Shown one piece after another: positions 4,108 through 48,882 of a stretch of 64,000 nucleotides of DNA; the first letter of the stretch is position 1; each line of letters begins with the position of its first letter. The notes below the pieces were generated by a model. That model was given only the letters and a program-made list of their open reading frames with translations. It was not told the DNA's origin and made no database searches. A program made the position numbers and the translations under genes. The stretch covers positions 806,001 to 870,000 of the forward strand of contig NZ_JAMQVC010000002.1 in NCBI RefSeq assembly GCF_023721415.1, written 5' to 3'. The stretch is from Galbibacter mesophilus (GTDB lineage: Bacteria > Bacteroidota > Bacteroidia > Flavobacteriales > Flavobacteriaceae).

Positions 4108-4815
4108 GTGGTCGCAATCATAAAAAGGGAAATAAGCAGTTTTTTTTCAACACCCATTGCCTACTTGGTTATTGGCTTATTTTTAATACTGAACGGTTTA
4201 TTCCTGTGGGTTTTTCAAGGGGATTTCAATATTTTTGAAAGCGGATTTGCAGATATGAATGCTTTTTTTCAACTGACGCCTTGGATTCTCATCTTTCTAA
4301 TTCCCGCAGTTACCATGAAAAGTTTTTCAGAAGAAAAAAAGAGCGGTACACTGGAATTATTACTTACCCGCCCCATTAGCAAGAGCGAAATAGTATTCGG
4401 GAAATTTTTTGGAAGCTATATTCTAATTTTAATAGCTGTACTACCTACTATTCTTTACGTACTTACCATCAATACACTTGCAAATCCAACAGGGAGCATT
4501 GATTATGGACCAATTGTTGGTGGTTATTTCGGACTCTTATTTTTGATGGGAGTCTATACCTCCGTCGGGGTTTTTATCTCTTCACTCACGGATAATCAAA
4601 TAATCGCTTTTGTTGCGGCTGCGCTGGTTTGTTTCCTACTTTATTTTGGATTCTCTGGTTTTTCTGAAATACTTCCGTTTTCTTTTATCGAAAAACTAAG
4701 TCTTAAATATCATTTTGATAGTATTGGCCGTGGAGTAATCGACATACGGGATATCATCTATTTTAAAAGTGTTTCGCTATTTTTCATCGTTTTAACCATT
4801 TTTAAACTAAAGTAA
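4108..4815 (+). CDS. gldF: Gliding motility ABC transporter permease GldF
   Basis: This 235-residue ABC-2 type permease has six predicted membrane helices. The hallmark region is around SFSEEKKSGTLELLLTRPISKSEIVFGKF, the cytoplasmic loop that docks the ATPase. It starts with GTG directly followed by GTC, and the N terminus VAIIKREISSFFSTPIAYL aligns with known GldF starts. GldF, GldG and the ATPase GldA form an ABC transporter required for gliding in Flavobacterium johnsoniae; gldA is not in this window. gldG starts two bases after its stop. Confidence 0.93.
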   Translation: MVAIIKREISSFFSTPIAYLVIGLFLILNGLFLWVFQGDFNIFESGFADMNAFFQLTPWILIFLIPAVTMKSFSEEKKSGTLELLLTRPISKSEIVFGKFFGSYILILIAVLPTILYVLTINTLANPTGSIDYGPIVGGYFGLLFLMGVYTSVGVFISSLTDNQIIAFVAAALVCFLLYFGFSGFSEILPFSFIEKLSLKYHFDSIGRGVIDIRDIIYFKSVSLFFIVLTIFKLK

Positions 4816-8949: not shown

Positions 8950-11400
8950 CTACAACTCCTTTGCGTTTTTAACCTTTTGGTTGGTAATCGCGATATCGAT
9001 CACTTCGCTCATTTCGTTTACATAGTGGAATTTAAGTCCTTTTAAATACTCTTCCTTAATTTCCAATACATCACGACGGTTTTCATTACACAAAATCAAC
9101 TCTTTTATATGCGCTCTTTTGGCCGCTAATATTTTTTCCTTGATACCGCCCACAGGAAGCACTTTTCCACGAAGGGTAATCTCTCCCGTCATCGCAATGT
9201 GCTTTTTCACTTTCTTTTGCGTGTATAGAGAAACCAAAGAGGTTAACATGGTAATACCTGCACTTGGTCCGTCTTTTGGCGTAGCACCTTCCGGTACGTG
9301 AATATGTACATTGTATTTTTCAAAAATACTTGGATCTATCCCAAGGCTTTCTGCATTCGATTTAATGTATTCCATAGCAATGGTAGCAGATTCTTTCATC
9401 ACCTTACCAAGGTTTCCGGTAATACTTAAATTTCCTTTCCCTTTAGAAAGAATGGATTCAATAAATAGAATATCACCACCGACGCTCGTCCAAGCGAGTC
9501 CGGTTACTACTCCAGCCACATCATTGTTTTCATATTTATCGCGCTCCAATCTCGGTGCTCCTAATATTTCCTCAACGTCTTTTACCGAAACTTTTACGTT
9601 ATACTCATCTTCCATGGCGATGGATTTTGCAGCATAACGTACCATTTTGGCGATTTGTTTTTCCAAACTACGCACACCAGATTCACGGGTGTAACCTTCC
9701 ACTATTTTTTCTAGCTCCTTCTTCCCTATTTTGAGATCGTTTTTGGTCAATCCATGTTCTTCCAATTGCTTCGGAAGTAAATGGCGTTTTGCAATTTCCA
9801 CTTTCTCTTCAATAGTATAACCGTTTACATTGATGATTTCCATACGGTCGCGCAACGCAGGTTGTATAGGACCTAAATTGTTGGCTGTAGCAATAAACAT
9901 CACTTTGGAAAGGTCGTAGCCCATTTCCAAGAAATTATCGTAAAACTCTTTATTTTGTTCAGGGTCTAATACCTCCAACATCGCTGAAGATGGATCGCCG
10001 CTGTGACTTACAGAAAGTTTATCTATTTCATCTAGAATAAATACGGGATTAGACGTTCCTGCCTTTTTCAACGATTGGATGATACGCCCTGGCATAGCTC
10101 CAATATAGGTTTTTCTATGTCCTCGAATTTCCGCTTCGTCACGAAGTCCACCCAACGAAATTCTAACATATTCCCTACCTAAAGCCTCTGCAACCGATTT
10201 CCCAAGAGAGGTTTTACCAACCCCCGGAGGTCCGTATAAACAAAGAATAGGCGACTTCATATCGTTTCTTAACTTCAGTACAGCCAAGTATTCAATAATA
10301 CGCTTTTTAACATCTTCCAATCCGTAATGATCGCGGTCCAATACCTTTTGAGCACGCTTTAAATCGAATTTATCTTTTGAAAATTTATTCCAAGGAAGAT
10401 CTAAAAACAGATCCAAATAGTTACGCTGAATGGAATACTCCGCCACTTGCGGATTCATACGCTGCAATTTCGCCAATTCCTTTTCAAAGTGTTCTTTTAC
10501 CTTAGTATCCCACTTTTTCTTTTTGGCTTTTAAGCGCATCTGCTCAATCTCTTCCTCATAAGAACCGCCACCCAATTCTTCTTGAATGGTTTTCATCTGT
10601 TGATGCAAGAAATACTCGCGTTGTTGCTGGTTTAAATCAGATTGAACCTTAGACTGAATATCGTTTCGTAAGTTTAACTTCTGAAATTCAACATTCATAT
10701 ACTTCAAGGTTGCCAAAGCACGCTCTTGAAGGTTTTTCGTTTCCAGTAATTTTTGCTTATCCTTCACTTCCAAATTCATATTGGAAGAAATAAAATTGAT
10801 AAGGAACGAGTTACTTTCAATATTTTTTATAGCAAAAGAAGCTTCCGAAGGAATATTCGGACTTTCCTTTATAATTCGCAATGCCAAGTCTTTAATAGAC
10901 TCTATAATAGTGGAGAATTCCTCATTTCCTTCCGCTGGTTTTTCTTCCGGCAGGTCTTTAATACGTGCTGTAAAATAAGGTTCTGCGGAAGTAATTTCTT
11001 CAATCTCGAAACGTTTTTTCCCTTGAATGATAACAGTTGTGTTTCCGTCAGGCATTTTTAATACTCGAAGGATTCTTGCTACCGTCCCTGTGGTATTTAA
11101 ATCTTTTACCTCTGGGTCTTCAACGTTTTCATCTTTTTGGGAAACCACTCCAATAACTTTATTCCCGTTGGAAGCATCCTTAATCAATTTTATTGATTTG
11201 TCGCGACCTGCAGTGATGGGAATTACCACCCCTGGAAAAAGCACGGTATTCCTTAAAGGAAGTATAGGCAAGGTTTCCGGTAATACCTCATTGTTTATTT
11301 CCTCCTCATCTTCGGGAGTCATTAATGGGATTAATTCGGCGTCGTCGTCAATGTTATGCAATGACAAACTGTCCATATTTAAAAATTTGTTGTTACTCAT
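8950..11400 (-). CDS. lon: Endopeptidase La (ATP-dependent Lon protease)
   Basis: This 816-residue protein has the complete Lon layout: an N-terminal substrate-recognition domain (about 45-250), a coiled middle, an AAA+ module with Walker A GPPGVGKT at 390-397 and Walker B-like FILDEID at 454-460, and a C-terminal protease domain. The catalytic dyad is Ser713 (in KDGPSAG) and Lys756 (in GGIKEK). It degrades misfolded and regulatory proteins in the cytoplasm. A 7-bp hairpin (CATTCTG/CAGAATG at 11415-11433) lies just before the start. The 21-bp repeat array lies further upstream. Confidence 0.97.
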
Positions 11401-11675
11401 AGTTCTTTATAAGTCATTCTGTCATTCAGAATGGATTGTATTATTCTTCTTTTTCAGTAGGATAAAGCGCTCATAGCTTACATTTTACATAGAAATGAAA
11501 GTTTGTAGGCATTTTATCATCCTATTAAGACAATACTTGTGCCAATTATGGGTCACCATCCGTTTTTTATTACTATACTTTGTTATCTCAGCACAACCAA
11601 CTATCCTGCAAGAACTTTGTATTTAGGTTTCAGAACCCACTTTTCTCCCTTTTTAAAGAATTTTTTACGTGCTAC
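11401..11675. other. Gene-free region upstream of lon
   Basis: Apart from the short hairpin at 11415-11433, no gene, clear promoter box or terminator is evident. A plus-strand frame opens at 11539 and runs into the repeat array, but its N-terminal part resembles no known protein and lacks a ribosome-binding site. I treat the stretch as non-coding; it must contain the lon promoter. Confidence 0.45.
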
Positions 11676-11960
11676 CACCATCTTTTTAGGTCTTTTCACG
11701 AAGTTTTTAGGTTACATCGTTAAATTTTTAGGTCTTGTACCTAAACGTTTAGGAAGACCAGCTAAACTTTTAGGTGTTTTACCTAAAGTTTTAGGCTTAG
11801 AACCTAAAGTTTTAGGTTCGGGACCTAAAGTTTTAGCCTCGAGACCTAAAATTTTGGCTTCGGGACCTAAAAATAGCTTGTTCGATGTTAAAAACTTCGT
11901 CATCGAGCCTAAATGATAGGTATTTTGAGCTAAACAGAAGTTATTTTTACCTAAATAGTC
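11676..11960. repeat. Array A of 21-bp palindrome-centred tandem repeats
   Basis: About 14 units repeat every 21 bases. The best units carry the dyad CCTAAA-NN-TTTAGG (for example CCTAAAGTTTTAGG) separated by variable 7-base linkers. The central units (about 11781-11870) are the most regular and both ends decay. On the right only the CCTAAA half persists. The array starts near ACCATCTTTTTAGGT, as array B at 48363 does, and both contain the identical stretch ACCTAAAGTTTTAGCCTCGA and the 13 bases after it. Both strands stay open in one frame because the unit length is a multiple of three. Confidence 0.85.
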
Positions 11961-11962
11961 GG

Positions 11963-12553
11963 TTATTTTAACCCTGTGAGCTTGTTGGTGAGTCCGAAAA
12001 ATATTAGCAAAGTGATAATGACACCAAATAAAAATAGTAAATAGGCTTGTTTTTTAGGGGTTATGGAAAGAACATTCCGTTTCATTTTGCGTGCATGGGC
12101 TCCAGATATGTGACCAAAAAAAGACAGCATTGCCAAGCCGTAATAGGGAATAAAGAATACGTTAGAGGGATACTTATTTATTCCTGTAGCGCCATAGTAA
12201 AAATTGGTGTCTAAATTCAGTTCATACCTTCCTTTGTAAACAGCCGCCAAATGCACCAGTAAAAATAGAGCCAAATACACTCCAGAAATCATTTGTATTT
12301 TTTCAAAAGAATCTGTTTTGCCTTTTCGCTTTTTAAAAACCAACCATAAACCACTCGCTATTTGGAATAAAAAAGCAGCAATGATAATGGGCTCGATAAA
12401 AACATTGCGGTAGAATTTCCGCAAAGAATCCATCACTGCTATGTGTGTTTCTATACTGAAAACACTCGTTAAATGATTAAAAAAATGTAGCACAATAAAA
12501 ACGGTAACCGCGATGCCCGATATAAAATGGAGCCTTTTTAGGGATGGATTCAT
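11963..12553 (-). CDS. Small histidine-rich membrane protein, cytochrome b-like
   Basis: This 196-residue protein has five predicted membrane helices (about 10-28, 52-74, 88-106, 133-152, 170-189). Histidines lie within or at the ends of several helices: H9, H23, H27, H101, H148 and H153. The pattern HFISG...VLHFFNH...LLVHLAAVY...FFGHISGAH resembles small succinate-dehydrogenase-like or DUF4405-like b-type cytochromes, but no family is certain. It lies 95 bases downstream of a sulfatase gene on the same strand and may be the last gene of the cytochrome/sulfatase run. Heme binding is an inference. Confidence 0.6.
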   Translation of the reverse strand: MNPSLKRLHFISGIAVTVFIVLHFFNHLTSVFSIETHIAVMDSLRKFYRNVFIEPIIIAAFLFQIASGLWLVFKKRKGKTDSFEKIQMISGVYLALFLLVHLAAVYKGRYELNLDTNFYYGATGINKYPSNVFFIPYYGLAMLSFFGHISGAHARKMKRNVLSITPKKQAYLLFLFGVIITLLIFFGLTNKLTGLK

Positions 12554-48326: not shown

Positions 48327-48362
48327 CTATTTGAGTTATTTAATGAAGTTTTTAGCATAAAT

Positions 48363-48675
48363 GACCATCTTTTTAGGTTAAATGATGAAGTTTTTAGGTG
48401 TTACACTCAAACGTTTAGATAGCATAGCTAAAGTTTTAGGTTATTTTTTAAAACTTTTAGGTGTCATACCTAAACTTTTAGATGTTTTACCTAAATTTTT
48501 AGGCTTACCACCTAAAGTTTTAGCCTCGAGACCTAAAATTTTAGGGTCAGGACCTAAAACTTTGGCTTAAAGACCTAAAAATTAGTCGATTCAGCCTAAA
48601 AACTCTGTTTTAAAGACTAATCGGAATGTAATTTCATCTAAAAAGTTGGATTATGATCCAAAATGAAAGGTTTTT
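48363..48675. repeat. Array B of 21-bp palindrome-centred tandem repeats
   Basis: About 15 units of 21 bases share the CCTAAA-NN-TTTAGG dyad with array A. Example cores are CCTAAAGTTTTAGC, CCTAAAATTTTAGG and CCTAAATTTTTAGG. Edge units have lost one arm. Array B shares its left edge (GACCATCTTTTTAGGT) and a 33-base identical block with array A, so the two are copies of one element, not independent expansions. A short open frame at 48382-48570 is a by-product of the repeat. Confidence 0.85.
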
Positions 48676-48845
48676 GAGCGGTTAAGTCACAGAAAAGCAA
48701 ATATTTATCGTAGCAATGTTCTTCGTTGTTCGATATTCGTTGGTCGATGAAAAACTAGCAATAAGCTATACGCCATATGCATTAAGCGGGGTCCGCAAAC
48801 TTTCCAAGCGTAGAGCTTAAGGCTTAGGGCAACTTTCGTGATTCG

Positions 48846-48869
48846 TTGTTCGGGTAGAACTAGAAACTT
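48846..48869. repeat. 24-bp direct repeat, right copy
   Basis: Identical to the copy at 48140-48163, 706 bases apart and in the same orientation. Confidence 0.75.
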
Positions 48870-48882
48870 TAAACCAGAAACT

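Follow-up and report, generated by a model that had tools for sequence, protein, structure and literature searches.

Copy A, an array of palindromic CCTAAA-NN-TTTAGG sites at a 21-bp step, belongs to a family of repeats dispersed through the genome of Galbibacter mesophilus. We tentatively read these repeats as a non-coding, dispersed intergenic element that would carry a helically phased platform of half-sites for a DNA-binding protein, and we give this reading slightly less than an even chance on the sequence comparisons below. The element is best described as MITE/BOX-like, and it measured 311-353 bp in one subfamily. The window, meaning the whole stretch of 64,000 nucleotides that was analysed, corresponds to C2:806001-870000 of the 3.77-Mb genome, which is assembled in 8 contigs.

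Layout of copy A

The features of the window are collected in Table 1. Copy A extends over approximately 11614-11963, slightly beyond the 11676-11960 of the first-pass annotation, whose coordinates were right. That annotation had described about 14 tandem units at 21 bp. The 21-bp register was real, but the array consists of 7 full dyads and about 7 half-sites. The central seven units matched 10-12 of the 12 fixed bases of CCTAAANNTTTAGG.

Table 1. Positions of copy A, copy B and their neighbours in the window.
Feature	Position	Strand	Description
lon protease gene	8950..11400	-	Pfam Lon domains; downstream neighbour of copy A, outside the element
Copy A, left arm	11614..11718	.	TTTAGG half-sites in the 21-bp register at 11614, 11677 and 11698; TTTACG at 11656; none at 11635
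Copy A, centre	11719..11858	.	Seven consecutive CCTAAA-NN-TTTAGG dyads, spacing exactly 21 bp
Copy A, right arm	11866..11963	.	CCTAAA-type half-sites in the 21-bp register at 11866, 11887, 11908, 11929 and 11950
ORF, 196 aa	11963..12553	-	No Pfam match; upstream neighbour of copy A, outside the element; its stop codon abuts the right arm
Copy B, whole subfamily-1 element	48335..48687	+	353 bp, from GTTATTTA to the right end motif
Copy B, parts	left arm 48343-48398; dyads ~48406-48566; right arm 48574-48671	+	Extents of the arms and the dyad row
R tract adjoining copy B	48758..48882 (C2:854758-854882)	+	Dispersed repeat, 118-bp probe

The dyad was matched 19 times in the window (at most 2 mismatches) versus 6.9 expected, and 19 or more matches occurred in 0/100 shuffles. 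At period 21, the best 10-unit score of copy A was 102/120, compared to a maximum of 60 in Markov-1 simulations (n = 100). The best 10-unit scores at the other periods from 15 to 30 were at most 65. The promoter and terminator scan gave no site within the copy A array. One terminator-like stem-loop (vs 0.5 expected) was located at 11414-11434, just upstream of the lon start (11400) and about 180 bp from the array.

Copies within the genome

A 27-base pattern (at most 3 mismatches) gave 102 forward matches across the whole genome versus 5 for the reversed control. Using two patterns, at least 14 element places were found among the matches listed, 13 of them well preserved and one degenerate (C2_322); all counts over 13 arrays exclude the degenerate place. 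The 13 arrays included subfamilies of 7, 3 and 2 copies, and copy A is a more distant relative of the first. Copies of one subfamily have their linkers in common and in the same order. Therefore, the copies of a subfamily are homologous, and the element behaves as an interspersed repeat rather than a lone site. The distances between the end motifs of the seven subfamily-1 copies were 311 bp once, 332 bp three times and 353 bp three times.

The places are intergenic by a mechanical ORF layout, except that short ORFs cross the repeat in 6/14. A Pfam scan of 29 neighbouring proteins left 10 without a match. The matched proteins included Lon, a class I tRNA synthetase of the Glu/Gln type (gltX), a quinolinate phosphoribosyl transferase of the NadC type, a thiamine-pyrophosphate enzyme beside a chorismate-binding enzyme (menD), an inositol monophosphatase, ParD, SLATT_5 and a sigma-54 activator. 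Operators of one regulon were considered and rejected, since no common function was seen among the Pfam-matched neighbours (29 scanned, 10 without a match). When subfamily 1 and copy A were taken together, 7/8 copies were antisense to co-directional neighbours. Since the element is quasi-palindromic, this orientation is not transferable to the remaining subfamilies.

Two sister arrays that differ by whole 21-bp units lie 6.7 kb apart in L032 (C1:719.7k and C1:726.4k). The same region holds genes for a ParD-like antitoxin and a SLATT_5 protein, possibly a defence or toxin-antitoxin island.

The R tract that adjoins copy B also flanks both sides of three other arrays (the menD copy, C4_139 and C2_937) in the same orientation. 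The array of the menD copy lies between 222-bp direct repeats of this kind, which are 81.5% identical. At the menD copy these tracts, about 220 bp long, lie at L036:3726-3944 and 4288-4506, and R tracts adjoin arrays in L034 and L040 as well. The 118-bp R probe was found at 9 places in the genome, 8/9 of them beside arrays.

Mirror plan of the arms

The array had been described as decaying toward its ends, and this description was not upheld. When the two halves of each unit were scored separately, all 13 own-genome arrays showed units with TTTAGG only on the left, units with both halves in the centre and units with CCTAAA only on the right, with few stray units. The five units preceding the first dyad in each of the 13 arrays were called by a half-site walk, which could move the register by 1 bp where this improved the fit and thus favours finding half-sites; it called TTTAGG only in 44/65 and CCTAAA only in 2/65. 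Right of the last dyad, it called CCTAAA only in 49/65 and TTTAGG only in 0/65. The background of this walk was 342 half-site calls in 8,400 positions (300 random places, seven loci). The units flanking the dyads hold opposite half-sites; therefore, the apparent decay is a mirror plan, which looks the same from both strands. Left-arm units of subfamily 1 often carried ATGAAG or ACCATC/ACCTTC as their other half.

Among the 12 congener places, the mirror plan was simple in 4, namely L098 (G005), L102 (G003) and L106 and L107 (G002), which belong to three congeners. The remaining places were compound (two dyad blocks with arms between them), one-sided or short, and the plan was not seen in the single G006 array. 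The compound arrays L097, L099, L101 and L104 (G005, G003, G002) have a one-sided arm between their dyad blocks, as if two elements had been fused or nested. Seven foreign arrays were drawn, and the mirror plan was present in two of them, from Flavobacterium geliluteum (L049, with GAAGTTTTTAGGT on the left) and from the unclassified Flavobacteriaceae contig CRH (L059, with ACCTAAAAACTTC on the right). The other foreign arrays drawn had dyad rows only or were mixed. At L049:3780-4300, past the CCTAAA array, approximately the same 21-bp step goes on with ACGTCAAATTTGACGT-like and ACCCCATTTTTGGGGT-like palindromes, as if the platform could swap its half-site and keep the step.

Dispersal and ends of the element

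About 920 bp of the genome at menD and about 730 bp at gltX were absent from the closest congener, G005. No array was found around the lon, menD and gltX genes in the stretches examined of six congeners (18 loci). These loci scored 32-43, compared to 30-38 for shuffles and 65-68 for the own genome, and the score of 43 came from a G005 stretch in which inspection revealed no array. The alignment upstream of lon stopped at window positions 11426-11552 in the six congeners, and the neighbour gene of C3_128 was found in 0/6 of them. When the menD copy was compared to three copies lacking full R tracts, the right boundary was nearly constant (4291, 4291 and 4292). Therefore, the array looks like a discrete dispersal unit.

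In common with MITEs, the element is multi-copy, intergenic and short, with no ORF of its own (at least 14 places among the matches listed), and it contains inner tandem units in variable number, visible as 21-bp length steps. We did not file it as a MITE because its terminal inverted repeats were inconsistent. With 70 nt taken per end in the 7 subfamily-1 copies, these repeats were above chance in C4_139 (5/300 shuffles) and C2_964 (8/300), both within the best 3% of the shuffles, and ordinary in the other 5. Inverted repeats of at least 14 nt within one copy lay solely inside the array.

These data bear on the reading of the element as a selfish MITE-like repeat, whose arms would be transposase or recombinase sites made of several half-sites at two-turn spacing and inverted between the arms. 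Tn7-type elements offer a comparable case, with multiple transposase sites at their ends. The dispersed, non-orthologous copies, the range within the genus from no match to at least 14 places among the matches listed, and the discrete ends of subfamily 1 agree with a selfish origin, as do the own-genome arms, which are inverted arrays of direct half-sites. However, besides the inconsistent terminal repeats, no target-site duplication was recognised at menD and gltX, the two loci compared in filled and empty form, where the junctions had diverged too far and were flanked by other repeats. Furthermore, no transposase family was present among the 29 flanking proteins scanned; one protein beside C2_1082 has a GIY-YIG nuclease domain. 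We consider this reading unlikely, though worth keeping in view.

Folding of the copies

A transcribed or single-stranded hairpin of the BOX/BIME kind, acting on a transcript as one long interrupted hairpin or as a string of small ones, appears distinctly unlikely. Five copies folded strongly on both strands (-94 to -120 kcal/mol for 350-360 nt, computed without a shuffle control), and the 7-copy consensus formed one long hairpin. However, the covariation term was unfavourable (+2.41), and a compensatory change was present in 4/80 pairs of the 7 copies. In the own genome, the flanks of the half-sites varied independently across both the centre and the linker, no Rfam match reached the gathering scores, and the two strands folded alike. 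The lack of pairing covariation in the own genome fits an element read as duplex DNA rather than as RNA.

Phase and conservation of the units

The phase of the array is protected, as judged from pairwise alignments of the copies. The 25 array alignments covered 7,805 bp at an identity of 0.823 and had 4.9 gaps per kb. Their net shift was zero or a multiple of 21 in 17/25, and the other eight left residues of 1, 1, 2, 2, 2, 3, 6 and 7 bp. After flank alignments shorter than 80 bp or below 62% identity were dropped, which kept 13/25 left and 11/25 right flanks and limits the figures to alignable pairs, the flanks had 24.6 gaps per kb on the left (identity 0.823) and 23.4 on the right (identity 0.79). 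Their net shift was zero or a multiple of 21 in 3/24. Thus, gaps were about five times fewer in the arrays than in alignable flanks of similar divergence.

Chained spacings were 21 bp in 117/123 steps of the own genome, of which four off-register duplicate chains supplied 18/117 (and 4/5 of the 22-bp steps). The same spacing was found in 63/69 steps of congeners and in 117/147 of other Bacteroidota. The remaining 30/147 steps of other Bacteroidota were 22 bp, and 19 of these 30 lay between ACGT-type half-sites. The proposed phasing at two turns of B-DNA was supported.

Conservation was compared by unit position. Over 407 homologous unit pairs, from which pairs with fewer than 10/21 identities had been dropped, the mismatch was 0.145 at TAAA/TTTA, 0.202 at CC/GG, 0.220 at NN and 0.273 in the linkers. 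Within arrays (364 unit pairs; 13 arrays, each represented by eight units), the mismatch was 0.00-0.11 at positions 4-6 and 9-11 (AAA and TTT), 0.22-0.63 at positions 1-3 and 12-14 (the outer dyad bases) and 0.44-0.75 at linker positions 15-21. Conserved palindrome arms with varying 7-base linkers had been proposed. The cores indeed vary less than the linkers, but AAA/TTT mismatch is low while the outer dyad bases vary, and therefore the conserved part is narrower than the CCTAAA arm.

A neutral minisatellite, in which slippage or unequal exchange multiplies functionless units, is in our judgement improbable. The copies do differ by whole units, and near-identical units occur in a Chitinophagales MAG. 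However, the linkers diverge strongly between units and the AAA/TTT core does not. The arrays have stayed in phase, in contrast to alignable flanks of comparable divergence with their many indels, and 13 own-genome copies repeat the mirror plan. The first-pass annotation had named two observations that would speak for slippage, a period that drifts in related genomes and dyads no more conserved than linkers. Both comparisons came out against slippage, the first on the congener steps and the second on the homologous unit pairs, where the dyad core (0.145) was set against the linker (0.273).

The arms contain T5 and A5 tracts, and the AA/TT periodicity at 10.5 bp exceeded all 200 base shuffles in 11/13 arrays. 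This periodicity is compatible with arms that may be curved and is in part a by-product of the 21-bp repeat. Both observations would suit a curved-DNA module of phased A/T tracts that acts solely by bending, such as an upstream element or a buffer of supercoiling. However, bending needs neither the conserved AGG/CCT bases nor a half-site mirror, and given the partial by-product we hold this reading very improbable.

A coding heptapeptide repeat (...PKVLGLE...) can practically be dismissed: copy A keeps its frame open and 6/14 arrays have their centre inside ORFs of 70-125 aa, but 12/13 arrays have 1-4 stops in the heptad frame over 13 units, 22-bp steps disrupt the frame in other lineages, and the open frame follows from the repeat's own codons, with no common start or end noticed. 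The earlier proposal that selection acts at the DNA level and not on the heptapeptides is supported.

Occurrence in other genomes

Matches with at most 3 mismatches were present in 4/6 congeners and in none of 53 more distant relatives, giving 5/60 genomes with the own genome included. A stricter three-core pattern, which missed the array-bearing congener G005, was run on 397 family genomes and matched the own genome plus two single chance-like matches; its control matched two further genomes. An exact pattern gave 13 stretches from 8 genomes in a collection of 84,980 species, all Bacteroidota by title: Flavobacterium, a Flavobacteriaceae bacterium, a Chitinophagales MAG and unclassified MAGs. 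Each of these 8 genomes had 4-126 forward matches, compared to 0-1 for the control. In a class-level sample, 5/395 genomes matched, the own genome included. On inspection, 3/4 of the others carried arrays (L109, L111 and L112), and L108 had two units only.

Viral contigs gave no match to two exact patterns. A plasmid or phage centromere or iteron array was considered as a candidate and rejected: one 241-bp query had no match in 72,556 plasmid and 50,697 phage records (BLAST with the low-complexity filter on).

Chitinophagales MAG-366 has long regular arrays (L048, L053 and L058). L048 and L053 mix 21- and 22-bp steps, and the 22-bp linkers mostly accompany ACGT-type half-sites. Two of these arrays, L053 and L058, are at the ends of contigs; therefore, assemblies may break at the arrays. 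One congener array (L104:3019, G002:C22:27218) lies about 2.3 kb past the lon end, a position that differs from that of copy A.

Comparison to known repeats

Plasmid iterons and centromere arrays (parC, tubC and the omega heptads) are phased repeats that load a protein filament, and they are single loci on replicons. The present arrays would resemble them in relying on regular phasing, whereas they occupy at least 14 places on one genome among the matches listed.

The nearest known kind, going by the available portions of the descriptions, is BrickBuilt of Porphyromonas gingivalis. The present element is likewise a dispersed repeat with a minisatellite inside, and helically phased dyads and the mirror plan set it apart. 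BrickBuilt is described in the part of the source available as a MITE with an internal 23-nt minisatellite and 19 intergenic copies per genome (PMC4596501). Both are intergenic elements of Bacteroidota with tandem units in variable number, a predicted long stem-loop and no Rfam match, as far as that portion goes. However, BrickBuilt has terminal inverted repeats, 4-bp target duplications and IS5-family-like ends, whereas the terminal inverted repeats found here were inconsistent. Its unit has a different sequence and is not described as palindromic in that portion, whereas the present units are dyads with mirror-oriented arms.

BOX of Streptococcus pneumoniae is likewise modular, intergenic and dispersed, with variable inner units between fixed ends, and is thought to be non-autonomous according to the excerpt consulted (PMC3049150). 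It differs, in the same excerpt, by terminal inverted repeats, target duplications and a predicted RNA fold, whereas the present element shows a 21-bp DNA phase and no RNA covariation. STAR of Staphylococcus aureus shares a conserved 14-bp motif repeated with spacers, intergenic placement and positions that vary between species (PMC3532100). Its repeats are, however, GC-rich direct repeats at least 40 bp apart, and the accessible part of that paper describes no dyads or helical phasing. The REP/BIME, GTAG and CGTC families are small multi-copy palindromes, sometimes clustered, and CGTC is reported in Bacteroidetes (PMC3733652). As described in the available sections, they are unlike the present element in being 20-40 bp hairpins that bear a tetranucleotide tag and are associated with RAYT transposases, and no strict 21-bp dyad array is described there.

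TIGR arrays, in the passages at hand, have two alternating repeats, 9-nt (up to 12-nt) spacers, 36-nt processed units and a Nop-domain Tas protein (PMC12045711). A TIGR- or CRISPR-like guide array was rejected here. PF01798 had 0 matches in the own genome (the control matched 4/14 named genomes, all archaea), and the arrays have a single 14-nt dyad, 7-nt linkers, a 21-bp step and linkers ordered alike between copies. A survey of prokaryotic satellites lists, in its available part, a 23-nt family in Flavobacterium psychrophilum, known here without its sequence (PMC6749651), and a Cardinium MITE has been described in a paper available in part (PMC9769881).

Consistent with the first-pass annotation, which did not recognise the array as a described element, no description of a phased dyad mirror element was found in the literature searched (titles and abstract openings, with subscription journals mostly outside the coverage and some result lists seen as best matches only).

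Putative mechanism and significance

For the protein-binding platform, the following steps would apply. The TTTAGG/CCTAAA half-sites, which recur at 21-bp intervals and lie on a single side of the helix, may be read by one putative DNA-binding protein; the first-pass annotation had suggested a nucleoid or partition factor as a possible example. A dimer or a chain of dimers would occupy the central dyads, and further subunits would be added outward along one face of the arms. The mirror plan suggests that the result could be a bidirectional nucleoprotein filament or a wrapped complex. The element would have spread by copying into intergenic sites and would be retained only while its platform stays in phase. 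Such retention would account for the rarity of out-of-phase indels in arrays whose linkers drift.

Several observations stand against the platform. The two halves of the dyads vary independently in the own genome, so recognition of each dyad by a dimer stays conjectural, and the outer dyad bases vary almost as much as the linkers within arrays. The residues of 1-7 bp kept in 8/25 array alignments and the foreign 22-bp steps (30/147) also count against it, and the mirror plan is not general. The absence of arrays at the orthologous positions tested, together with 2/6 congeners without a match, weakens the case for a host function.

A wider proposal covers a class of elements in Bacteroidota, in which a candidate protein would load on the central dyads and grow both ways on a single helix face via the half-sites of opposite polarity in the two arms, so that the element would be a mobile platform. 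No described counterpart of such a platform came up in the literature searched. We regard this wider proposal as rather doubtful.

If protein binding lies behind the phase lock, the family would point to a new chromosome-binding system of Bacteroidota, with the dyad array as a ready-made bait for the binder. Should the element prove selfish, it would be a small illustration of how helix geometry, and not coding or RNA structure, can constrain the copies of a repeat. In both cases, the family would offer a testable case of DNA-phasing selection in bacterial intergenic repeats.
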